A stretch of 64,000 nucleotides of DNA from Bacteroidales bacterium (GTDB taxonomy: Bacteria > Bacteroidota > Bacteroidia > Bacteroidales > UBA932), in the NCBI GenBank assembly GCA_016290385.1, contig JAEETO010000003.1:1-64000 (forward strand). Direction: 5' to 3'. Under the pieces are notes generated by a model. It ran no database searches. It was not told where the DNA came from and saw nothing but the letters and a program-made list of their open reading frames with translations. Of the stretch, positions 1 through 53,556 are shown piece by piece. Made by a program: the position numbers and the translations under genes. The stretch's first letter is position 1. Each line of letters starts with the position of its first letter.

Positions 1-2587
1 GGGCCAGCCGGGCGGCGCGACGGGCTTCCTTGCGGGCCTGGCGTTCCGCTTTGCGGAGGGCGCGCTTCTCGGCGCGGGTCAGCTTTTCGCTGCGCACGAC
101 GGTTTCCGGCGACGCGATATCGACGGTTTCGGCCGGCTTTTCGCGGTCGATGACAGGCTGCTGGTTGTTTTCGACGATAGGCTTGGAGACCTCAACGACG
201 GTGGTGTCGAGATTCCGGGTCAAGCCCGGAATGACGGTCGTGTCGGGCATGACAGTAGTAGTGTCCGTCATGACACCGATGGTATCGACAATTGATCGTA
301 CACCAACGCTGTCGACCACAGGTTGTACAACTTCCTCATCGTCATGCCTGGCTACCCCGATTTTTCCGTCATTCCGGGTACCTATTTCGTCATTCCGGGC
401 ACCTATTTCGTCATTCCGGGCTTGACCCGGAATCTCCAGGGCGGCGATGGAGTCCAAAGCTGCGGCGCGGGCCAGCGAGTCGCGCTCGCGCTCACGGCGC
501 TGCAGCTCGGCCAGCTTGCGCGCATTGATCTGCTCGAAGAGCTCGTACATGTACCCGTCGAAGAACTTGTTCGTCTGCCGATAGAGCGGCTTTTTCAGAT
601 CCACGTACTTCGAGCGCTCCGACACCCGCATCTGACGGTCCGTGATGGAATCACGCCGGGATGGACGCTCGGCGGCACGCCACTCGAAACCCTTGAGCCG
701 CTGCTTCGACATTTCCAACTCACCCACCGGATAGGCGTCGCTCTTGATCGACTCCATGTACAGCAGCCGCTGCGCCGTGCCGTCTTTCAGCGCGGCAGTC
801 ATCGATTTGGCCTCCTTGAGGTTGATGGTCGTGACCACGTCTTCGTCCACCATATAGAAAATAGCCGTCACGCCGCCCAGCGCATCGAAACGATAGATCT
901 TGTTGTCGCGGAACCAGCCCAGCATCTCCGTGCTCTTGATCTGGTTGTAGTGGACGCTGTCCTGTTCGGAGATGATCCAGGCATCGGTGATCATGCTGCC
1001 ACGGTCGAAATTGCCGTTGCGGAAGAGCAGCTGCATGTCTTCGGCGGTGAGCTGGTTACGGACCTCGTTCCAGAGGATGGGGCGCCCGAAGAGCCGGGCG
1101 ATGGAGTCGAGTTCACAGAAAACCATGGAGTCGCATGCGGCCTGGACGTCACTGCGGTACATCTTCACATTGTGCCAGGCATGCACGTATCGTATCGGCG
1201 TCGTATCCAGCACCACGGTATCCTCCATCGCCATGACAGCGGTGCTGTCAGGCATGACGCCGATAGAATCGACCATCGGCTGTACACCAACGCTGTCAAC
1301 GATTGGTCGCACACCGATGCTGTCAACAATCGGCTGAGGACCATCGTCCTCGTCATTCCGGGCTTGACCCGGAATCTTAGGCAGCTTCGCGAGCGAATCC
1401 AATCTTGCCAGCGAATCCCTTTCCGCCTGTTGCTGTTGCTCCACCCATTCCGGCGGAAGCTTGCCCACGGCACGCAACTTCGCGATGCGCTCCTGCTCCC
1501 GCTGCTCGCCTTCCTCAGCCCGTTTCTTCGACAACGCATCGAACAGCATGTCATCGAGCCGCTGCGCCGCTTCCTTGACCTCCTTGTCGGGAATGTCGCA
1601 ACGCGGCACCGTGTACACGAAGAACGAGTCGGCCCGCGCAAAGAGCGTATCGACCACATGGTCCTCATTCTCACCGTAATAGATAATGGCCGGATCGCCC
1701 GTCAGCAGGCCCCGCTGCGAAAGCGAGTCCGTGGCCGGCAGATATTGCATGTGATCGCCCAGATAGACGCTCTTGTTGGTCGTGTCCAGCACCTGGGCGT
1801 TGCGCAGAAGGTCGACGGCGCCGTCCATCTGATGATAATATACTTCGTCGGCCCAGGCATCGTAGGAAGGGTCGAACATGAAGACATGGTTGGTGAAATA
1901 GACCAGCCGCGTCGGGCGGTCGTACCAGCCGGCGTCGGCCCGGAGGAAACCGTCGTCGCGCCACAGGTAGGTATTGCGGCCGAAATGCGCACGCTCCGTC
2001 TCGTTGAAATAGCGCAGCTGGTTGGTCTTGATCTCGATCGAGTCCATGTAGAGCTCCACCTGGTCCTCGAATGAGAAGAGCCCCTCCTTGCCGTCGTAGG
2101 TGCCTTTGCGGCTCTCGATCACGTTGCCGTCCTTGTCTTTCATCGACCCGCCGTACTCGAATACGGCCACGCTGTCCTTGGTGTTGTAGGACAGGCGTTC
2201 TGTGCGCAGCGTGTTGCCATCCTTGTCGAAAAGCTCCACCAGCGTGCCGCGGAACAGGGCCCGGCTTTCATCGATCCAGTAGATCATCTCCTCGCTCTTG
2301 AGCATGGTCTTGTCCTGGATGATCTGCACGTTGCCGAAGGCTTCGATGTAGCGGCTGTCCACGTTCCACGACGCGGAGTCGCACAGAAGATAAGTGTCGT
2401 TGTGGAGGAAACGGGCATGCCCCTTCACCAGGCGGTACTGGGTGCCGTACTGCTCATACTGCTCGGCCCGTTCGGCCTCAAGCAGGCGGAAGACGCTGTC
2501 TTGCGAAGCGGTCTGGCTGAAAAGCGGCGCGCTGCCGCCCAAAATGAGCAGCAGCACCGCCAGCAGCATCCGTCGTCCCGCCTTCAT
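1..2587 (-). CDS. OstA-like LPS-transport family protein (3' end outside window)
   Basis: The reading frame opens at the ATG at 2587 and runs without a stop to the left window edge, giving at least 862 residues. An N-terminal hydrophobic signal sequence ending near FSQ is followed by repeated short beta-rich units (LCDS, YIEAFGNVQI, LRTERLSYN) typical of the OstA/LptA-LptD N-terminal fold, which carries LPS through the periplasm. The second half alternates more OstA-type sequence with charged low-complexity linkers rich in RRERERDSLAR. Those linkers carry in-frame palindromic elements (IPGQARND, VIPGLTRNL) and 9-residue tandem repeats. It starts 3 bp after the prolyl isomerase gene, and isomerase plus OstA is a sensible outer-membrane-biogenesis pair. 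Family assignment comes from pattern and neighbourhood, not a profile search. The inserts make it longer than I would expect for this family. Confidence 0.75.
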   Translation of the reverse strand, partial: MKAGRRMLLAVLLLILGGSAPLFSQTASQDSVFRLLEAERAEQYEQYGTQYRLVKGHARFLHNDTYLLCDSASWNVDSRYIEAFGNVQIIQDKTMLKSEEMIYWIDESRALFRGTLVELFDKDGNTLRTERLSYNTKDSVAVFEYGGSMKDKDGNVIESRKGTYDGKEGLFSFEDQVELYMDSIEIKTNQLRYFNETERAHFGRNTYLWRDDGFLRADAGWYDRPTRLVYFTNHVFMFDPSYDAWADEVYYHQMDGAVDLLRNAQVLDTTNKSVYLGDHMQYLPATDSLSQRGLLTGDPAIIYYGENEDHVVDTLFARADSFFVYTVPRCDIPDKEVKEAAQRLDDMLFDALSKKRAEEGEQREQERIAKLRAVGKLPPEWVEQQQQAERDSLARLDSLAKLPKIPGQARNDEDDGPQPIVDSIGVRPIVDSVGVQPMVDSIGVMPDSTAVMAMEDTVVLDTTPIRYVHAWHNVKMYRSDVQAACDSMVFCELDSIARLFGRPILWNEVRNQLTAEDMQLLFRNGNFDRGSMITDAWIISEQDSVHYNQIKSTEMLGWFRDNKIYRFDALGGVTAIFYMVDEDVVTTINLKEAKSMTAALKDGTAQRLLYMESIKSDAYPVGELEMSKQRLKGFEWRAAERPSRRDSITDRQMRVSERSKYVDLKKPLYRQTNKFFDGYMYELFEQINARKLAELQRRERERDSLARAAALDSIAALEIPGQARNDEIGARNDEIGTRNDGKIGVARHDDEEVVQPVVDSVGVRSIVDTIGVMTDTTTVMPDTTVIPGLTRNLDTTVVEVSKPIVENNQQPVIDREKPAETVDIASPETVVRSEKLTRAEKRALRKAERQARKEARRAARLA
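211..235. repeat. Palindromic element copy inside the OstA-like gene
   Basis: An 8-bp stem ATTCCGGG/CCCGGAAT with loop TCAAG. On the coding (minus) strand it is read in frame as VIPGLTRNL, at residues about 785-792 of the OstA-like protein. Its orientation is opposite to the other copies in this gene. Confidence 0.9.
276..329. repeat. 27-bp tandem repeat, two units, in the OstA-like gene
   Basis: Two adjacent 27-bp units (276-302 and 303-329) encode nine residues each, of the pattern V-V-D-S/T-x-G-V. The same 27-bp unit occurs three times at 1260-1340 in the same gene, also next to a palindromic element. Confidence 0.85.
341..435. repeat. Array of one full and three half palindromic elements in the OstA-like gene
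   Basis: Half units begin at 341 (degenerate), 368 and 389, and a complete palindrome spans 410-435. Spacings are 27, 21 and 21 bp, all multiples of three, so the array is translated as IPGQARND, EIGARND, EIGTRND and a degenerate IGVARHD without a frame change. Confidence 0.9.
1260..1340. repeat. 27-bp tandem repeat, three units, in the OstA-like gene
   Basis: Units at 1260-1286, 1287-1313 and 1314-1340 encode a PIVDSVGV-type nonapeptide three times. Eleven bases further on lies a complete palindromic element (1352-1377), the same composite arrangement as at 276-435. Confidence 0.9.
1352..1377. repeat. Palindromic element copy inside the OstA-like gene
   Basis: Complete 26-bp copy starting GTCATTCCGGG and ending CCGGAATCT, read in frame on the minus strand as IPGQARND at residues about 404-412. 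Confidence 0.9.
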
Positions 2588-5530: not shown

Positions 5531-8500
5531 CTACTCGTATGTGACGGTCCAGCCGGCCGGGCAGATGGCGCCCCAGGTAGAATACCAGTTAACAGCATTC
5601 TGGATCGAAGTGTTCAGAATGATTACTCCATTGGACGCGACGCCATCGCACCAACCGCTCTCACCACTCTTTTGAAACACGTTGGCAATCCAGTTTGTTC
5701 CGAGCATCTTAATGTGGTTCAACTTACTGCAGCCAAAAAACATTCGCTGGTAGGCTCCGGTGACAAGCTTCGTAGCTGTGAGGTCAGGCGCGTACTCCAG
5801 GGATGTGCAGTTGTAGAACATGTTGCGGTAGCAGGTATTGCCCAAGTTCGTGGCCGGCAGGAACTGAGGACCACGCACCAATTCGGTGCAACTGTCGAAC
5901 ATCGACTTATATTCATCGGTACTGAGAGACTTCATCGGCAGCACAAGGTCGTATGCATCGATAAGACCCGTTTGCGCTTTGAAGAAATCTACAAACGTGT
6001 CTCCAGTTACCGTCTCGCCGTGCGTGGGATAATCGTCACCGACCATGAGCGAGGCAAAGTTCCCGCCCACTTTGAACCGACCTCCTGTGGCAGAGAACGC
6101 ACCGGTAACTTTCCATGTCTTTTTCGATGTCTTACTGCCGGCCTTGAAACTGACCTTCTGACCCGCAGTAAGAGGTATGGGTAAATTCTGGGTGTAAGAA
6201 GTCCATATCCCGTCATCAATCTTATATTGGAGTCCTTCGTAGTTCAGTTTGACGGTGCAATTATCAACGGCTTCGACCCAGAAGTGATTGTCAGGGACGA
6301 TATAAGGCTCAACGTTTTGGAAGGAAACGCTCGCCTTGTAACAATGTTCGTTATAGACCCAGATGGTCGTGGCACTTTGGACCTCAGTAGTCTTAAAGTA
6401 ACAGTAGAAAGTACGCACTTTCCCGTTTGTGGGCAGGTTCGCATATTCATTCCAGGTCAGTGTCCTGATGAAGTGAAAAGCGTCTGTATCTTTGAATTCA
6501 GCTTGGTCCGTAGCAATCGAAGGCCCAGAAACGACAGGCATATCCATATTCTTTGAGACGTCTGGACTGATGGTCATGGCCTCAGGCTCAACGATGAATT
6601 CCAACGGGAACATGGATTCCGGCAATTCCGAATTAATGGTTACCGCCAGGGTAACGGGCGTTCCTTCGACAGTAAAAACAGGGTCTGTACAAGTAAGCGT
6701 CAGCGGTATCTTGTTTTCGTAGGATTTCCAGCCCTTGTTGAAATACTCATTATAGACCCAGATGGTCGTGGCGTTAACGTCTCTGTTGGACTTAAAATAG
6801 CAGTGGAATGTTCGCTGCCCGTCGTCGTTCACATCAAGGCTCAAAAACTCATCCCATGTGAGTGTCCTGAGAAAGTAGAAAGCCGGGGTATCTTTAAAAG
6901 CTGATTCTGTCGTGGCTATCGAACGCCCGGAAACGACAGGCATATTGATATCTCTCCCTGTGTCCGGTGTCAGTGTCCGGGCCTCAGGCTCGACGATGAA
7001 TTCCAGCGGGAACATGGATTCCGGCAGTTCTTTAGGAATGTTTATACCTACGTCAATGGAAGTATTCGTGGTAAGTGGAACAGGATCGGTGCATGTGACC
7101 GTCAGGGGCTGCTTGTTCTGCAGCGTGATTTCCACCTCCCGGTACAGGCGCAGGTCCTGGGGGTTGCCGGGGTTGTGGCCGGTAATCTTGATCTTCTGGG
7201 TCTTGGTCACGTCCAGCGGTTCAACTGTGTTGAAACGAATGGTTCTGATTCCTTCCACACCGCCCACCGTGGCCGCCTCGGGAAAAAAGAAACCTCTTGT
7301 AGGAACACGGTTTTCGTTGTCGTCATAGAGGATGAGTATGTCGTCGGAACCGTCAGTCATGGGCTCCAATTCCACCCTCACGGCAACGGTGCTAGTATTA
7401 GGCACGTCCGAATTCACGCTGTTGAAAAAACGTGCATACAATTCATAGTAGCCTTCTTCCGCCGGACCACTGTAGGTCCTGGTCATGAAGGGCTCCACCA
7501 CGAGGCGGGTTGTGCCGTTGGAGATGTCGGAAAGATGACGCATGGAAACATCGGCCGATATGTCTTCCGCGCCCGAAGAATTGACGGCTGCATCAGGGGT
7601 GAGAACGCCTTCGGAGGATATTCTGTGCACCTGGATGTTATAGTAGAAATTCCTGTAAATGGGGTAGTACTTGTAGACAGTCTGGGTGCCTTCTGCCTTG
7701 GACTCCATCAGGTCGATGCGATAGTAGTACCAATTGTCGTCGTCTTCAAATTTACCGCATACTATGATGAACGTGGGGCCGATCTTGTCTGTAGGAACGC
7801 CGCGCTCATAGATGTAGAAGCCGCGCTCGGTGTCGTTCGGGTCGTAAAGGACGACTCGGCCTTCGCTGGTGGAAGGATCCTCGAACTCGGAAGCGGGAGG
7901 CACAAAGTCGTTCAGTGCGACGCCGGCCGGCATGTTGCCGAGGTAGTTGATGCTCTCTTCCAGCTGTTCGAAGCTGCTTTTTTCATAACCGCTGAGCCGA
8001 TAGCCGGAGGGCGGATTGAAATCAAAACGTTGCTCCGCAACTGGCTCGTTGCTACGGTACGGCACCACGGATCCCCTTTCAGGATAGAAAATCACAGCGT
8101 AGCTATGCAGCAGGAAATTGTCTGAGGCGTTGGTCACATGGATCTTGGCGAAGTTCCTGATGAGCGGGATGTACTGGAAAAAACCCTGGGTTTCATCGTC
8201 CGGAACATAGCACCCGTCCTGCTTCATCGGCTTCTGGGTGTTGGGGTCGATCTTGGCCTTGATGTGCGGCACGTACAGTTTTTGCCAATAGGCCTGCTTG
8301 TTGTTGTAGGACAGCAGTCCCGGAAGGTTCTGGTAGGAGTAGGAACCGGTGATCAGCTGGTTCTCGTCCACGTTGCCCAGGATATGGATGGTGCGACCGA
8401 AGTCGGATATTTCCAGCTGGACCTTGAATCGATACAGCGTGGTGTGCCTGTCTCCTCCGGAAAGGGGATAGTATTCCTGTGGAATTTCATAATCCGGAAT

Positions 8501-20169: not shown

Positions 20170-20269
20170 GTCACCCCGGACCCCGATCCGGGGTCTGAGA
20201 TTCCGGGTCAAGCCCGGAATGACGGGAAGATCAAGCCCGGAATGACGGGAAGATCAAGCCCGGAATGAC
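20170..20269. repeat. Cluster of palindromic elements
   Basis: A GTCACCCCGG-type copy (20170-20196), a complete ATTCCGGG copy (20199-20223) and two half copies at a period of about 23 bp. The cluster ends 6 bp from the stop codon of the tricorn-type gene and fills the gap to the aldolase gene. Confidence 0.9.
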
Positions 20270-26490: not shown

Positions 26491-26603
26491 GATTCCGGGT
26501 CAAGCCCGGAATGACGTGTGGTCGAGCCCGGAATGACGTGTGGTCAAGCCCGGAATGACGTGTGGTCGAGCCCAGAATGACGTGAAGTCAAGTCCGGCAT
26601 GAC
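26491..26603. repeat. Array of one full and four half palindromic elements
   Basis: A complete copy (26491-26515) is followed by four GTCRAGYCCRGMATGAC half copies at a 22-bp period. The array lies between the TonB receptor stop (26635) and the terminator. A small GCGCCA/TGGCGC hairpin follows at 26609-26622. Confidence 0.9.
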
Positions 26604-30031: not shown

Positions 30032-30091
30032 GATGCCGGGTCAAGCCCGGCATGACGATTGTCACGTCACCCCGGGCTTGACCCGGGGTCT
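30032..30091. repeat. Two palindromic elements
   Basis: An ATGCCGGG variant (30032-30056) and a CACCCCGGG variant (30066-30091). The second ends 6 bp from the stop codon of the OB-fold lipoprotein gene. Confidence 0.9.
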
Positions 30092-34993: not shown

Positions 34994-35018
34994 GATTCCG
35001 GGTCAAGCCCGGAATGAC
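34994..35018. repeat. Palindromic element
   Basis: Complete ATTCCGGG-TCAAG-CCCGGAAT copy ending 5 bp from the stop codon of the nuclease gene. Confidence 0.9.
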
Positions 35019-35023
35019 GTATT

Positions 35024-37093
35024 CTATAATCCCCATGCGCCGGCATCGAATTTTGATTCTGCTTCTTTTTCGTATTCGTCTTTCAGGTTGTGGAAGAAAT
35101 TGAAGCCCGTACGCTTCTCCAGTTCCGCCACGGAACAGGCTTCGTTCTTGCTGATGGTCTGGCTGCCGTAACTGCGGTTCTCCAGCCAGAAGCCGATGGC
35201 CGAGTAGCCGCCGTTGGCGGATCCGGCCTTGTACTTGAGGACAGCCTTGAAATAGGCTTTCGGCACGGCCACGGGCTTGCCCACGGCATCGTTGGTATAT
35301 TGGATCGCCTCCCCTTCTTCGGTACGGAGCACGCAGCCTGTCACGACGTAGACCGTGTCGGACGAGGAGATCTGGTTGCGGACCAGTTCCTCGAGTTTCT
35401 CCCAGATGCCCTGGTTGAGGTTCTGGTTCTGTGGTGTTATGTTGGTATAATAGAATGTCTGCTCGTTGGCGGCGACGGTACACAGGCGGTCGGCCGAAGG
35501 AAGCTGGTGGCCGCGGTCCCAGCCGGCATAGCTGCGGGACACGTCACCCTGGTAGCGGCGCGGCACCAGCGGGTCGTAATCCCATTTGTCGGTGCGCGAA
35601 ACCCCGCGGGTCATGCCGCTGTAGAGCGGATAGGCCACCCAGAGCGCCACGCGGTTGTCCAGGTCGTACCAGAAGGAATAGTTGCGCACGTTATAATCTT
35701 TGTAGACCATGTCGTGGCTGAAGTAAGCCTTCCCTTCCGCCGCCTGGATGAAGGGCAGCTCAAGCCAGGAGGCCACGGGACTCGGCACCACGGCTTCCAG
35801 CGGCTGCTGGTCGATCGTGAAGGTCAGCGTGTTGGGCGTGACGGAGGCTTCCGTCGCGAACGTGATCACGGCCTGGCGGCCTTCCGAGGTACTCGGATTT
35901 TCGGTATAGCTAATGACGACGTTGCCGCCGGTCGTGCCGGAAGAAGGCGTCACGGTGAATGCGTCGCTTGAAGACTTGGCCGTCCACGGAACGTTGGCGG
36001 AGACGGTCAGGGTGAGCGAACCGGCGTCACCGCTGACGGAGGCTTCGGTCTTGGCCAGGGAGAAATATGGATCACTCGCGAAGCGCGGGCCGGTCAGGCC
36101 GGCGAAGTCGGCTTTCTCCGAGACGACCATCTGGATGCGCCCGGCATATTTGCCGGCGATACCTTTGAGCGTGCCGCTGCCGGTGGGGACGGGATCGTCC
36201 TTGAACACGGCATATTGGGAGGTGAACAGGTCGAAGCTGCCGCCATCCTTGCCTTCGAAAGTCACCGAGCCTTTGTTCCCGGCCGCATAGAACGACTGGC
36301 CGACGAAAGTATCTTTCAGCTGCACGTCGGACACGGCCACGTACATCGATTCGAATTTTCCGCTCAGCAGCTCTTCGATGGTGATCTGCCGGGGCGTGGG
36401 CGTCGTCTCGCCAAGGTAATCCACATTGCTCAGCGACAGATTCTTCACCTGGATGGCACCGTCCGAATAGACGGAAAGGATCTGGTTCTGCAAGTGGACG
36501 CGCACTTTATGTCCGCGGGCGAAAGTCTTGTTGTCGCCGTCACAGTAAAGCATCAGACCGGCCTCGCCGTCGGAGATGATGATGGTCTTGGCGGAACTGT
36601 AGTTGTTCAGGCCGCCGTCGGTATCGCGGCGATAGTCGCTGATGACGATTCCTTCAATAAGGATGTCTTCCTTGATCGTATAATCCTTACCCGGATACAG
36701 GGCGCGGATTTCGCTGATGGTCTTGGTCACGGACGCGGGCTTCACATACATCTGCTGCGAGACGCTGACTTTCTTCTGGTCGTCGACAGACTCGACGGTA
36801 ATCGAACCCGTGCGCGCGTCGGCAGCGTTGGTGGAAACGGTGACCGTCACCGTACCGGTGCCGCTACCCGAGGAGGGAGTGACACGGATCCAGGATTCGG
36901 AAGTACGCGCATACCACATTCCCTTGCAATTCACCGCGAAGGTTGCCGAGCCTCCTTCGGCCGTAAATTCCAGAGAGGAAGGAGCTACCGAGACCGTCAG
37001 TTTCTCGGGTGCCGGTTCGGGCTGCGGCTTCTCGCACGACGCCAGGACCAGGGCCAGTCCGGCAAAAAGAAATAATAGGCGAAGGGCTTTCAT
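35024..37093 (-). CDS. Surface lipoprotein DNA/RNA non-specific endonuclease (NUC1) with BACON and DUF5689-like domains
   Basis: A 689-residue lipoprotein (lipobox LASC). Order: BACON domain (about 30-105), DUF5689-like region with an OB-fold (about 115-330), second BACON domain (about 330-420), and a C-terminal NUC1 beta-beta-alpha-metal nuclease. The nuclease signature DRGHQLPSADR (Asp526, catalytic His529) and the metal Asn region TPQNQNLNQGIW (about 560) are intact. It should cut DNA and RNA at the cell surface. The ATG at 37093 is chosen for the signal peptide; an upstream start is rejected. A -7 box lies 21 bp upstream. It is just upstream of the receptor/OB-fold operon. Confidence 0.88.
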   Translation of the reverse strand: MKALRLLFLFAGLALVLASCEKPQPEPAPEKLTVSVAPSSLEFTAEGGSATFAVNCKGMWYARTSESWIRVTPSSGSGTGTVTVTVSTNAADARTGSITVESVDDQKKVSVSQQMYVKPASVTKTISEIRALYPGKDYTIKEDILIEGIVISDYRRDTDGGLNNYSSAKTIIISDGEAGLMLYCDGDNKTFARGHKVRVHLQNQILSVYSDGAIQVKNLSLSNVDYLGETTPTPRQITIEELLSGKFESMYVAVSDVQLKDTFVGQSFYAAGNKGSVTFEGKDGGSFDLFTSQYAVFKDDPVPTGSGTLKGIAGKYAGRIQMVVSEKADFAGLTGPRFASDPYFSLAKTEASVSGDAGSLTLTVSANVPWTAKSSSDAFTVTPSSGTTGGNVVISYTENPSTSEGRQAVITFATEASVTPNTLTFTIDQQPLEAVVPSPVASWLELPFIQAAEGKAYFSHDMVYKDYNVRNYSFWYDLDNRVALWVAYPLYSGMTRGVSRTDKWDYDPLVPRRYQGDVSRSYAGWDRGHQLPSADRLCTVAANEQTFYYTNITPQNQNLNQGIWEKLEELVRNQISSSDTVYVVTGCVLRTEEGEAIQYTNDAVGKPVAVPKAYFKAVLKYKAGSANGGYSAIGFWLENRSYGSQTISKNEACSVAELEKRTGFNFFHNLKDEYEKEAESKFDAGAWGL

Positions 37094-37114
37094 CAGGACA
37101 TAAAGTCTAACCTG

Positions 37115-37122
37115 CAAATTTA
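37115..37122 (-). promoter_or_regulatory. -7 box of the nuclease gene
   Basis: TAAATTTG on the minus strand, with ATTG 20 bp upstream as a weak -33 element. It is divergent from the metK promoter, which it overlaps. Confidence 0.6.
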
Positions 37123-37131
37123 CCAATAATT

Positions 37132-38826: not shown

Positions 38827-41340
38827 TTACAGGTCCAATTCAACTACGGTGATGCCCGCGCCTCCCTGCTGCACCGCCTCATCGCGAAACGAAGCCACGG
38901 AAGGGACGGTCTTGAGGTACTTGCGGATCTCTTCGCGGAGCACGCCGTTGCCCTTGCCATGCAGGATCTTGACCTGTCCCACGCCCACCATCGTGGCATC
39001 GTCGATGAAGTGCATGACGATGTCGAGGGCGTCGGCCAGGCGCTGGCCCCGGATGTCGATCGTGGGCTTGAATTCGAGCTTGCGGCGGCTGATCGATTCG
39101 CTGTCGTAGTGGATGACCGGACGGAAAGTGCTGCGGGTCTGCTCCTTGTATTGCTGGTTGGAGATCTTTTCAACTTTGCCGGGGGCGATCTTCGAGATGA
39201 TGCTTCCGACCGACACGGAGATATATTTGGCGGCGATCTGCGTGACTTCGCCCACCATGTTGTTGTCTTTCAAACGAACTTTATCACCCACCTGCAACGG
39301 CGTTTTATCTGCTCTGTCCGTTACTCCCGGCTTGCCATCCTTGCCGTCATGCCGGGCTTGACCCGGCATCTCGCCCCGCCGCTCCTTACGCACCCGCTCC
39401 CGCTCTTTCCGCTCCGTGATCTTCTGCATCTTCCGCTCAATGGCGGCGTCGTTCTCGCTGGGCTTCTCTTCCTTGAGGGTTTCCTTGAATTTCGTGAGTT
39501 TCTCACGCGCCAGGCGGGTCTTGTCGCGCTCGGCCTGGGCCTCGCGGATCTCGCGAATGGTGCGTTCTACCTGCTTGTTGGCCTCGGACACAATGTCGGC
39601 GGCTTCGGCACGGGCCTCGTCGAGCATGCGCTTCTTGAGCGCCTTGACGTCTTCGAGCTCTTTCTGGTATCTGTCGGTGAGGCTCTCCAGGGTCTTGTCG
39701 GTACTCTTGATGCGGGCGAGTTTCTCGTCGAGGACGCGGCGGCTGCGGGCGATCTGGCGAAGGTTGCGCTCGATGTTGACGAATTCGCTGCCGGCCCGTT
39801 GCTCGGCATCCTTGACCACGTCGGCGGGCAGACCCATCTTCCGGGCCAGTTCAAAGGCGAAGGAATTGCCGGGCATGCCCTGCTGGAGCTGGAACAGGGG
39901 CTTGATGGCGGCGCCGTCGAAAAGCATGGCGCCGTTGACCACGCCGGTACTCTTGTCCGCGTAGAGCTTGAGGTTGGTGTAATGGGTGGTGATCACGCCG
40001 TAGGCGCCCAGGTCGTCGAGCCGTGCGAGCACGGCTTCGGCGATCGCGCCGCCTGCGGCGGGCTCGGTGCCGCTGCCAAATTCGTCGATCAGCACGAGGG
40101 AATGCTCGGTGGCATGCGTCAGGATCTCCCGCATGTTCTGCAGGTGTGAGCTGTAGGTGCTCAGGTCGTTTTCGAGCGACTGGTCGTCGCCGATGTCGAT
40201 GAAGATGCTGTCGAAAATCAGCATTTCGCTCACTTCCGAGGTGGGGATGAGCATGCCCCACTGGAACATGTACTGCAGCAGGCCCACCGTCTTGAGACAC
40301 ACCGACTTGCCGCCAGCGTTCGGGCCGGAGATCAGCAGGATGTGCTTCTCGCGGCTGAGCGAGAGGGTCAACGGCACAATCTCTTTTTTCTCGCGCCGGA
40401 GCGAGGCTTCCAGCAGCGGATGGCGGGCGCGGCGCAGGTTCATCTCGCCGTTGTCCGACAGCACGGGCATGCCGGCGATCATGTCGAGGGCCACCAGTGC
40501 CTTGGCGCGGATGAAGTCGATCTCGCCGATATATTCGGAGGCGGCGATCAAGCCGCCGAGGTATGGCCGGAGAAATTCGGTGAAGACGAAGAGGATTCGG
40601 GCGATCTCGCGCTGTTCGTCGAACTGGAGTTCGCGGATCTGGTTGCCCAATTCCACGATTTCGAAAGGTTCGACGAAAGCGGTCTTGCCACTGGCCGACT
40701 CGTCGTACACGATGCCGGGCAATTTCTTCTTGCTTCCGGCTGCCACGGGAATCAGCACCCGTCCGTCGCGGACCACCACTTCGGCGTCGGCCTCGACCAG
40801 GCCTTCGCCCTTGGCATTGCCCAGGATGGCATTGATGCGACGCGACACCTGTCCCTCCTTGGAACGGAGGGTGCGGCGGATCTCGGCGAGTTCGGGCGAT
40901 GCGTTGTCGCGCACTTCGCCGTTTCGGTCGAGGATGGCTTCGATGCGGCGGCTGATTTCCGGATCGTAGCTGACCGATGCGGAGATCTGCCGGAGCATGG
41001 GATAGAGGTCGTCCTTGCAGTCGCGGAAAAAGGCCAGGATGCGGCGCAGGGTATCAAGGCTGGTGCGCAGGGCGCGCAGCGACGGGAGGTCGATGCTGGT
41101 ATTTTCGGCCTGAATCGGCAGCAGGAATTCCTTGGTGTCGAGATAGCCGCCGGCCGGGAAACTGTCTTCAAACAGGCAGATGAGCCGCATCTCGTCGGTC
41201 AGGCGGAGCCGGAACATGATTTCGTCGGGGTCGCGCGACATCTGTTCGGCGGCAACTTTCCGACGGGCATATTCTGTAACGGCTTTGGCGGCGATCCTGT
41301 CCCGCACCTTGTCGAATCCGATTTTCTGTTCGAGTACCAT
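38827..41340 (-). CDS. mutS2: Endonuclease MutS2
   Basis: An 837-residue MutS2 with a DNA clamp/lever region, an ABC-type ATPase with Walker A GPNAGGKS (about 338-345), Walker B LVLIDEFGSGTEP and H-loop ITTHYTNLK, a long charged coiled coil (about 540-660), a KOW-like segment and a C-terminal Smr domain (DIRGQRLADAL, LHGKGNGVLR). MutS2 suppresses recombination and/or rescues collided ribosomes. Residues 658-665 (MPGQARHD) come from a palindromic element inserted in frame between the coiled coil and the KOW segment, a tolerant linker. It begins 15 bp after cdaA. Confidence 0.95.
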   Translation of the reverse strand: MVLEQKIGFDKVRDRIAAKAVTEYARRKVAAEQMSRDPDEIMFRLRLTDEMRLICLFEDSFPAGGYLDTKEFLLPIQAENTSIDLPSLRALRTSLDTLRRILAFFRDCKDDLYPMLRQISASVSYDPEISRRIEAILDRNGEVRDNASPELAEIRRTLRSKEGQVSRRINAILGNAKGEGLVEADAEVVVRDGRVLIPVAAGSKKKLPGIVYDESASGKTAFVEPFEIVELGNQIRELQFDEQREIARILFVFTEFLRPYLGGLIAASEYIGEIDFIRAKALVALDMIAGMPVLSDNGEMNLRRARHPLLEASLRREKKEIVPLTLSLSREKHILLISGPNAGGKSVCLKTVGLLQYMFQWGMLIPTSEVSEMLIFDSIFIDIGDDQSLENDLSTYSSHLQNMREILTHATEHSLVLIDEFGSGTEPAAGGAIAEAVLARLDDLGAYGVITTHYTNLKLYADKSTGVVNGAMLFDGAAIKPLFQLQQGMPGNSFAFELARKMGLPADVVKDAEQRAGSEFVNIERNLRQIARSRRVLDEKLARIKSTDKTLESLTDRYQKELEDVKALKKRMLDEARAEAADIVSEANKQVERTIREIREAQAERDKTRLAREKLTKFKETLKEEKPSENDAAIERKMQKITERKERERVRKERRGEMPGQARHDGKDGKPGVTDRADKTPLQVGDKVRLKDNNMVGEVTQIAAKYISVSVGSIISKIAPGKVEKISNQQYKEQTRSTFRPVIHYDSESISRRKLEFKPTIDIRGQRLADALDIVMHFIDDATMVGVGQVKILHGKGNGVLREEIRKYLKTVPSVASFRDEAVQQGGAGITVVELDL
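39346..39369. repeat. Palindromic element inside mutS2
   Basis: GTCATGCCGGG-CTTGA-CCCGGCAT, the ATGCCGGG variant also seen at 30032. It is read in frame on the minus strand as MPGQARHD. Confidence 0.9.
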
Positions 41341-43023: not shown

Positions 43024-43467
43024 ATGATCGACCAACGGATTGTAGATTTTATCGGGGAGCACCATGTGCTGACGGTGGCGTGCGTGTCGCCGGAAGACGG
43101 GCCGTGGTGTGCGAATGCTTTCTATGTATTTGACGAACAGGAAGAAGGCTTTATCATCACTTCGGAAGAGAAGACGCGGCACGCACAGTTGTTTCTGGAG
43201 AATCCGCGGGTTGCCGGCTCCGTCGTGCTGGAGACCGAACAGGTCGGCAAGATCCAGGGACTGCAGTTCACGGGTACCGTCGGCCGTTGCGACGGCGGCC
43301 TCTTCGACCGCTGCCGTCTGAAATATCTCAAGCGCTTTCCCTACGCCGTCTTCAAAGGCGGCGAAGTCTGGCTCATCACCCTCGACACCCTCAAATACAC
43401 CGACAACCGGCTGGGCTTCGGCAAGAAACTGCTATGGCACAGAGATTCCGGGTCAAGCCCGGAATGA
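43024..43467 (+). CDS. YhbP-like flavin-fold (pyridoxamine phosphate oxidase superfamily) protein
   Basis: A 147-residue split-barrel protein resembling E. coli YhbP (UPF0306): WCANAFYVFDE, SEEKTRHAQLF, RVAGSV, and the closing KYTDNRLGFGKKLLWHRDSG. YhbP itself has no proven function. The last residues SSPE and the stop codon come from a palindromic element beginning at 43444; the conserved RDSG is partly coded by the element. ATG at 43024 is chosen over a TTG 9 bp upstream. Confidence 0.8.
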   Translation: MIDQRIVDFIGEHHVLTVACVSPEDGPWCANAFYVFDEQEEGFIITSEEKTRHAQLFLENPRVAGSVVLETEQVGKIQGLQFTGTVGRCDGGLFDRCRLKYLKRFPYAVFKGGEVWLITLDTLKYTDNRLGFGKKLLWHRDSGSSPE

Positions 43468-43526
43468 CGAGGGATCAAGCCCGGAATGACGTTTTTTATC
43501 GTCACCCCGGACCTGATCCGGGGTCT
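43444..43526. repeat. Palindromic elements filling a convergent gene junction
   Basis: A complete copy (43444-43468) overlapping the stop of the YhbP-like gene, a half copy ending near 43490, and a CACCCCGG variant (43501-43526) ending 4 bp from the stop of the S46 peptidase gene. Confidence 0.9.
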
Positions 43527-53152: not shown

Positions 53153-53536
53153 ATGAGGATGGCACACAAACTTCCGGCTTTTCTGGTCAGCGTCTTTCTG
53201 GTGCTGACCGCCGCGGCCCAGTTCACGGGCTGCGAGAAATACGTGCTGCCCGACATCAGCCTTTCGCCCGACACCCTCTATTTTCGTGCCGGAGCCGATT
53301 CGGCCGACATCCAGCTCCACACCAATGTCATCACCGCGCCGGAGCAGGACGACGACGCCCACTGGATCTCCGCCTGGCCCGAATGGTTCGACGCCGACAG
53401 CCCCGTGACGATCTATGTCAAAGAAAATACCGATTCGACATCGCGAATCGGTATCCTCTATTTCAGGTCGGAAGCTGTAGAAAAGAAGCTGGTCGTCATC
53501 CAGGAAGGATTAGATTCCGGGTCAAGCCCGGAATGA
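53153..53536 (+). CDS. Single-BACON lipoprotein with C-terminus supplied by a palindromic element
   Basis: A 127-residue lipoprotein (TGC lipobox, Cys27) with one BACON-like domain (LSPDTLYFRAG through KKLVVIQEG). BACON domains usually end at VIQEG. Here the frame continues LDSGSSPE and stops inside a palindromic element, as in the YhbP-like gene. It is divergent from the BACON/TonB operon and convergent with the C69 gene. A second in-frame ATG at 53159 is possible. Confidence 0.7.
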   Translation: MRMAHKLPAFLVSVFLVLTAAAQFTGCEKYVLPDISLSPDTLYFRAGADSADIQLHTNVITAPEQDDDAHWISAWPEWFDADSPVTIYVKENTDSTSRIGILYFRSEAVEKKLVVIQEGLDSGSSPE

Positions 53537-53556
53537 CGAGGGGTGTCACCCCGGGG
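53513..53556. repeat. Palindromic element and partial copy between convergent genes
   Basis: A complete copy (53513-53537) contains the stop codon of the BACON gene. A partial CACCCCGGGG copy (53545-53556) ends 1 bp from the C69 gene stop. Confidence 0.9.

Follow-up and report, generated by a model that had tools for sequence, protein, structure and literature searches.

Small palindromic repeats that carry an unpaired terminal tag have been described in several groups of bacteria, and two families are close to the repeat studied here. In the survey by Di Nocera et al. (2013, PMC3733652), the CGTC-tagged REP superfamily is reported from Bacteroidetes and from inside genes of several species, including repair genes, for which the author speculated on a role, and the RPE-4 and RPE-6 elements of Rickettsia conorii are listed as members. 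In Rickettsia, the RPE group at a given site differs between orthologs, among them those of IleRS and a RecB-family exonuclease (PMC3767692), which is a close parallel to the situation described below. Our literature search for in-frame REPs in Bacteroidetes beyond PMC3733652 gave only a survey of HuH endonucleases. In this study, we have analysed a stretch of 64,000 nucleotides (the window) from an uncultured ruminant-gut Bacteroidales bacterium, together with its draft genome (154 contigs, 83.5% complete; G000 below) and its relatives. The host genus is that of 'Candidatus Cacconaster', a name that we met in a single paper, on horse faeces.

A tagged palindrome in the linker of MutS2

The gene that carries the element is mutS2, as indicated by its match to the MutS2 equivalog TIGR01069 (score 782 bits, cutoff 400, E=5.8e-235) and by the Pfam domains MutS_V (residues 336-515) and Smr (residues 761-835). 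The features of this locus are the following:

38827-41340, minus strand: mutS2, the host gene, 837 aa, with TIGR01069, MutS_V and Smr matches
39345-39348, plus strand: CGTC tag of the palindromic repeat
39349-39356, plus strand: 5' arm of the stem
39357-39361, plus strand: loop, CTTGA
39362-39369, plus strand: 3' arm of the stem
39370-39372, plus strand: tail, CTC
39346-39369, minus strand: in-frame reading MPGQARHD, MutS2 residues 658-665, in the predicted disordered linker

These parts make up a 28-bp unit (39345-39372, plus strand) of the form CGTC-ATGCCGGG-CTTGA-CCCGGCAT-CTC, that is, a tag, an 8-bp stem, a 5-nt loop and a tail. A preliminary description had reported an in-frame palindromic copy of 24 bp at 39346-39369, and we recovered both its letters (plus strand, GTCATGCCGGGCTTGACCCGGCAT) and its translation as MPGQARHD. 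The same description placed the element between the coiled coil and the KOW/Smr regions, which agrees with the AlphaFold2 model of the protein: a helix at residues 629-654, pLDDT below 50 at 651-678 and a beta domain from residue 687, ahead of Smr. Residues 651-678 are thus predicted by the model to form a disordered linker. The palindrome is free of stop codons in four of its six frames, and all four are in use in predicted genes of the present genome, as E[MI]PGQAR[HN]D, V[IM]PGLTR[NH]L, RH[SA]GLDP[EA]S and R[CF]RVKPGMT; one copy uses a fifth frame, in which a change in its loop abolishes the stop. Judged by its sequence anatomy, the repeat is a CGTC-tagged REP, a family that has already been described.

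Copies in the window, the genome and other genes

In the window, 10 copies were found with at most three mismatches, as against none in 100 shuffles, and the genome holds 103 copies, as against none for a reversed-pattern control. Besides the mutS2 copy, the window contains:

211-235, minus strand: in-frame copy read VIPGLTRNL, in the predicted gene at 2-2569 (minus strand)
410-434, plus strand: in-frame copy read EIPGQARND, with adjoining degenerate half-units, in the same predicted gene
1352-1376, plus strand: in-frame copy read KIPGQARND, in the same predicted gene
20199-20269, minus strand: intergenic full copy; its tag side carries two half-units of period 23, each made of the tag, 5' arm, loop and TCTTCC
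26491-26582, minus strand: intergenic full copy; its tag side carries about three half-units of period 22
30032-30056, minus strand: intergenic copy of the G/C variant that it shares with the mutS2 copy
30066-30090, plus strand: GTCACCCC variant, head-to-head with the copy at 30032-30056
34994-35018, minus strand: intergenic copy immediately 3' of the gene at 35024-37126 (minus strand)
43444-43468, minus strand: copy with one tag-side half-unit, overlapping the 3' end of a small predicted gene
53513-53537, minus strand: intergenic copy

The predicted gene at 2-2569 (856 aa) combines its three full in-frame elements with a degenerate repeat tract (VDSIGV.. units). The anatomy of the repeat was counted on 117 elements in 415 kb of DNA around the genomic copies, with genes called by a simple coding model that had been trained on these 415 kb. 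The 8-bp stem is perfect in 102 of the 117, and subfamilies of identical copies differ from each other by matched base changes (ATTCCGGG/CCCGGAAT, n=45; ATGCCGGG/CCCGGCAT, n=15; ATGCCGGA/TCCGGCAT, n=8), with further stem subfamilies having CCCGG/CCGGG cores. The loop is mostly CTTGA, rarely CTCGA, CCTGA or CCCGA, and the base that precedes GTC in the tag is C in 111 elements and T in five. An inverted neighbour lies on the tag side of 16 elements and on the tail side of one. Among 396 sampled Bacteroidota genomes, 42 have the general pattern in at least one copy, and the present genome has the highest number (80).

The preliminary description proposed a genome-wide search for in-frame copies, and these proved to be common: 43 of the 117 elements lie wholly inside predicted genes and 11 more overlap a gene end. 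Intragenic copies are depleted relative to chance, yet numerous, because about 93% of the 415 kb is called coding. That about a third of the copies in this genus lie inside predicted genes, with all four stop-free frames used, appears to be new. By domain search, the hosts include IleRS, whose synthetase and anticodon domains have two copies between them, an AddB-like PD-(D/E)XK nuclease, an AlkD-type DNA alkylation repair protein, TsaB, PrmC (two), two ABC-F proteins, CutC, CbiG, FtsX, GH3 and others; in a SufE/FeS_assembly fusion the element sits between the two domains, and Mfd has at least two in-frame elements. The mfd gene is split over two contigs that overlap in sequence (the end of C133 and the start of C16 in G000). 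A pattern like that of MutS2, with empty orthologous sites, was found in about 20 other genes. In five relatives, the same loops of the orthologs are empty, differently filled or occupied by other repeat-like sequence, and several sites that are occupied in G000 are empty in its close relative G026; host-gene sites therefore show presence/absence variation between sister species. For a possible enrichment of the insertions in disordered linkers, structure prediction covered MutS2, where the linker is predicted to be disordered, and the domain borders of the other genes gave a mixed picture, with inserts between domains in the SufE fusion, IleRS, Mfd and CbiG and in loops within domains in CutC, TsaB, AlkD and FtsX. 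Besides MutS2, from which the search started, three of about 25 hosts are repair genes (Mfd, AddB-like and AlkD), a raw count that is suggestive only of an enrichment; the copies in these genes and in MutS2 could hint at a role. As a separate observation, genome G004 fills the same loops of AlkD (L240) and of an FtsX-like protein (L297) with different repeat-like inserts, of the types CHSERSEES and SPQNDN, which suggests that several intragenic repeat families exist in the genus.

A second property of the repeat is its polarity. Of the 117 copies, 19 have a head motif in the same orientation no more than 50 bp away on their tag side, and one has it on its tail side, where it belongs to a complete second element. 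The resolved half-units consist of the tag, the 5' arm, the loop and about six further bases. In 15 of the 19 cases the nearest half-unit shares the stem variant of its full neighbour (p ~0.002 under random draw), and for this reason the half-units look like local duplications. Polarity to the tag side holds genus-wide: G000, G007 and G018 have 27, 12 and 11 hits, and their opposite-polarity hits (1, 0 and 3, respectively) look like background. In a DUF5009 gene (contig C83 of G000, about 6900-7170), one of these arrays encodes about a dozen 8-aa units of the KEVKSGMT type. To our knowledge, and within the limited literature searched, tag-side arrays of half-units have not been described.

We found no linked transposase: 3-5 kb around each of 20 Y1_Tnp genes from 10 genomes contained no element or half-element with up to two mismatches, and G018 has 35 copies of the element and no Y1 match. 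This agrees with PMC3733652, according to which CGTC REPs seem to be without a dedicated transposase. Many genomes of the genus carry one to five copies of a family of about 310 aa (L071-L090) whose N-terminal half is Y1_Tnp-like and whose C-terminal part is long; it is not flanked by the palindrome.

The MutS2 site across the genus

MutS2 proteins of species from the same genus were aligned, and the site was found occupied in about a dozen related species, with different stem variants and in two reading frames. The palindrome directly follows the RGE codons in G000, G001, G015, G018, G023 and G027, where it is read as PGQA, SGQA or PGRA, and it is read in another frame, as VKPGMT, in G007 and G032 (linkers GTCATGCCGGG.. 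in G000, GTCATTCCCGG.. in G018/G023, GTCATCCCCGG.. in G007, GTCATCCCGGG.. in G032 and GTCATGCCCGG.. in G027). A further insert breaks the palindrome in G026, G033 and G036, and the element of G011 resembles a relic. The breaking insert (linkers L032 and L041/L043) holds CTCTCGCTTCGCTCGGGTC, a sequence that is repeated in five genomes of the genus. Among the aligned proteins, the element is absent from G003, G028, G034, L168 and all more distant relatives. In the seven distinct intact copies, 96.4% of stem cells are paired and seven changes affect both sides; stem covariation is 0.286, as against 0.079 when shuffled and at most 0.083 when slid, for a small set of seven sequences that are not independent of phylogeny. 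In the peptide, the M-to-I and H-to-N replacements are coupled because the DNA pairs, which argues that it is the DNA, and not the peptide, that is maintained. Given the different stem variants, the two frames and the empty sites, the peptide is therefore not conserved and the DNA hairpin is.

Based on these results, we consider it likely that a CGTC-tagged REP landed in the MutS2 linker and persists as a DNA hairpin that is tolerated there, rather than as a selected peptide. The best reading of the element is that of a selfish or mutationally self-maintaining DNA palindrome. A 28-bp hairpin copy would have entered the disordered linker that joins the coiled coil to the C-terminal beta/Smr region. 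The simplest timing for this is the common ancestor of one subclade of the genus, and the copy would have stayed because four of its frames are free of stops and the linker tolerates extra residues. Selection would then keep only the downstream frame and not the peptide. In this view it is the hairpin that persists: its stem changes are paired, and one lineage has shifted the frame in which it is read. The symmetry of the stem would probably be kept by hairpin-templated correction (template switching in the hairpin) and/or by turnover among copies. We infer that carrying the element is neutral for MutS2, and that its copies have spread as selfish DNA. A bolder and distinctly speculative extension, to which we give little credence, would be that CGTC palindromes stay perfect and grow without a dedicated transposase, through a switch of template between the two arms of the hairpin and through polar switching once the loop has been passed, the latter leading to tag-side arrays and then to protein repeats inside genes. 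If true, the family would be driven by replication and not by a transposase.

Another possible history, although we think it rather unlikely, is that the linker of MutS2 has been hit repeatedly, as an insertion hotspot, by palindrome variants that inserted independently in different species, as opposed to a single old insertion that diverged. The different stem variants and two frames at the site could be explained in this way, as could the unrelated sequence that G004 holds there and the different repeat types in the AlkD, FtsX-like and ABC-F loops of sister species. However, the elements at the MutS2 site share their orientation and an ATCTC junction beside the RGE codons (the flank of G032 differs), and the frame has changed only once on the MutS2 tree. 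Parsimony on this tree, which was built without the linker, requires three changes for presence, one for frame and two for the stem core; its deep branches are weak, so that a single insertion followed by losses is not cleanly separable from repeated insertion.

It is much less probable that mutS2 retains the element for regulation as an RNA hairpin, that is, as a terminator, an mRNA-stability signal or an attenuation signal. Intergenic copies are mostly in unidirectional (38) or convergent (17) and rarely in divergent (5) positions, as for other REPs, which would fit such a role. The mutS2 copy, however, lies about 520 bp ahead of the stop codon and is not followed by a U-run on the coding strand, the 43 copies within predicted genes occur in both orientations, and only part of the genus has the element. 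That the octapeptide would be a functional MutS2 motif under selection may be suggested by the repair and ribosome-rescue function of the host gene and by the several species with GE[MI]PGQA[RG][HN]D, but we reject it as very improbable: MutS2 of element-free relatives lacks the octapeptide (its conservation there would have spoken against the preliminary description), G007 and G032 read the element in another frame, M/H and I/N covary through base pairing, and the same peptide occurs in unrelated proteins. Lastly, an artefact of metagenome assembly, conceivable for such a fragmented draft, has a negligible probability since independent assemblies from several hosts show the same MutS2 site with intact open reading frames.

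The evolutionary evidence at this one orthologous site is unusually clear. More broadly, defined orthologous sites in essential genes allow one to trace how elements insert, are replaced by variants, change frame and are lost, and the compensatory stem changes at a fixed site, together with the strict polarity of the half-units, provide testable handles on how such repeats persist.

Comparison with described repeat families

GTAG REPs and REPINs, which are associated with RAYT transposases, are likewise small palindromes, dispersed and with a terminal tag that stays unpaired. Our repeat is not a GTAG REP mobilised by a RAYT, as it has no GTAG tag and the Y1 transposase genes examined in the genus are not flanked by it. 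The dRS3 elements of Neisseria (CGTC-1) are, like our repeat, CGTC-tagged and clustered in arrays, but differ in their host and, according to PMC3733652, in belonging to a family with a 4-nt loop.

The nearest described type is CGTC-2, with its 8-bp stem and 5-nt loop (PMC3733652). CGTC-tagged REPs are recognised by a CGTC (or TGTC/CCTC) tag that is left unpaired at one end, a stem of 8-9 bp with AT as its first pairs, a loop of 4-5 nt, and a high dispersed copy number in which head-to-head pairs are commonest and no transposase is flanked; our repeat has each of these, with a stem of the form ATnCC... and a short tail, and it shares with the superfamily the presence of copies inside genes, repair genes among them. 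The differences are the tail, which reads CTC(A/T) here (T at +1 in 109 of 117 elements, C at +2 in 78) in place of the usual CCA, and the present host genus and tag-side half-unit arrays, which the parts of PMC3733652 available to us do not mention.

The comparison with Rickettsia RPEs, already drawn in the preliminary description, holds well, as our repeat is an in-frame, protein-coding palindromic element of this type with in-frame copies throughout the genome. RPE-4, RPE-6 and RPE-7 (PMC3767692) are in frame within housekeeping genes including those for IleRS, a RecB-family exonuclease and UvrC, and share an ATGAC motif (the complement of GTCAT); in both systems the elements lie in frame within conserved genes and are tolerated in exposed or flexible regions. 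Unlike our repeat, they belong to another phylum, have other stems and form longer inserts (68-192 bp in the R. japonica table, PMC3767692). RPEs proper reside in Rickettsia/Rickettsiales, and the host here is one of the Bacteroidales. The earlier statement that Bacteroidota have no described equivalent was too broad and only partly right, given that CGTC REPs are reported in Bacteroidetes and within genes; the heavy and shifting presence of the repeat inside housekeeping genes of this genus appears not to have been described previously. Our results extend the "selfish DNA inside proteins" of the Rickettsia type to a genus of gut Bacteroidales with dozens of related genomes.
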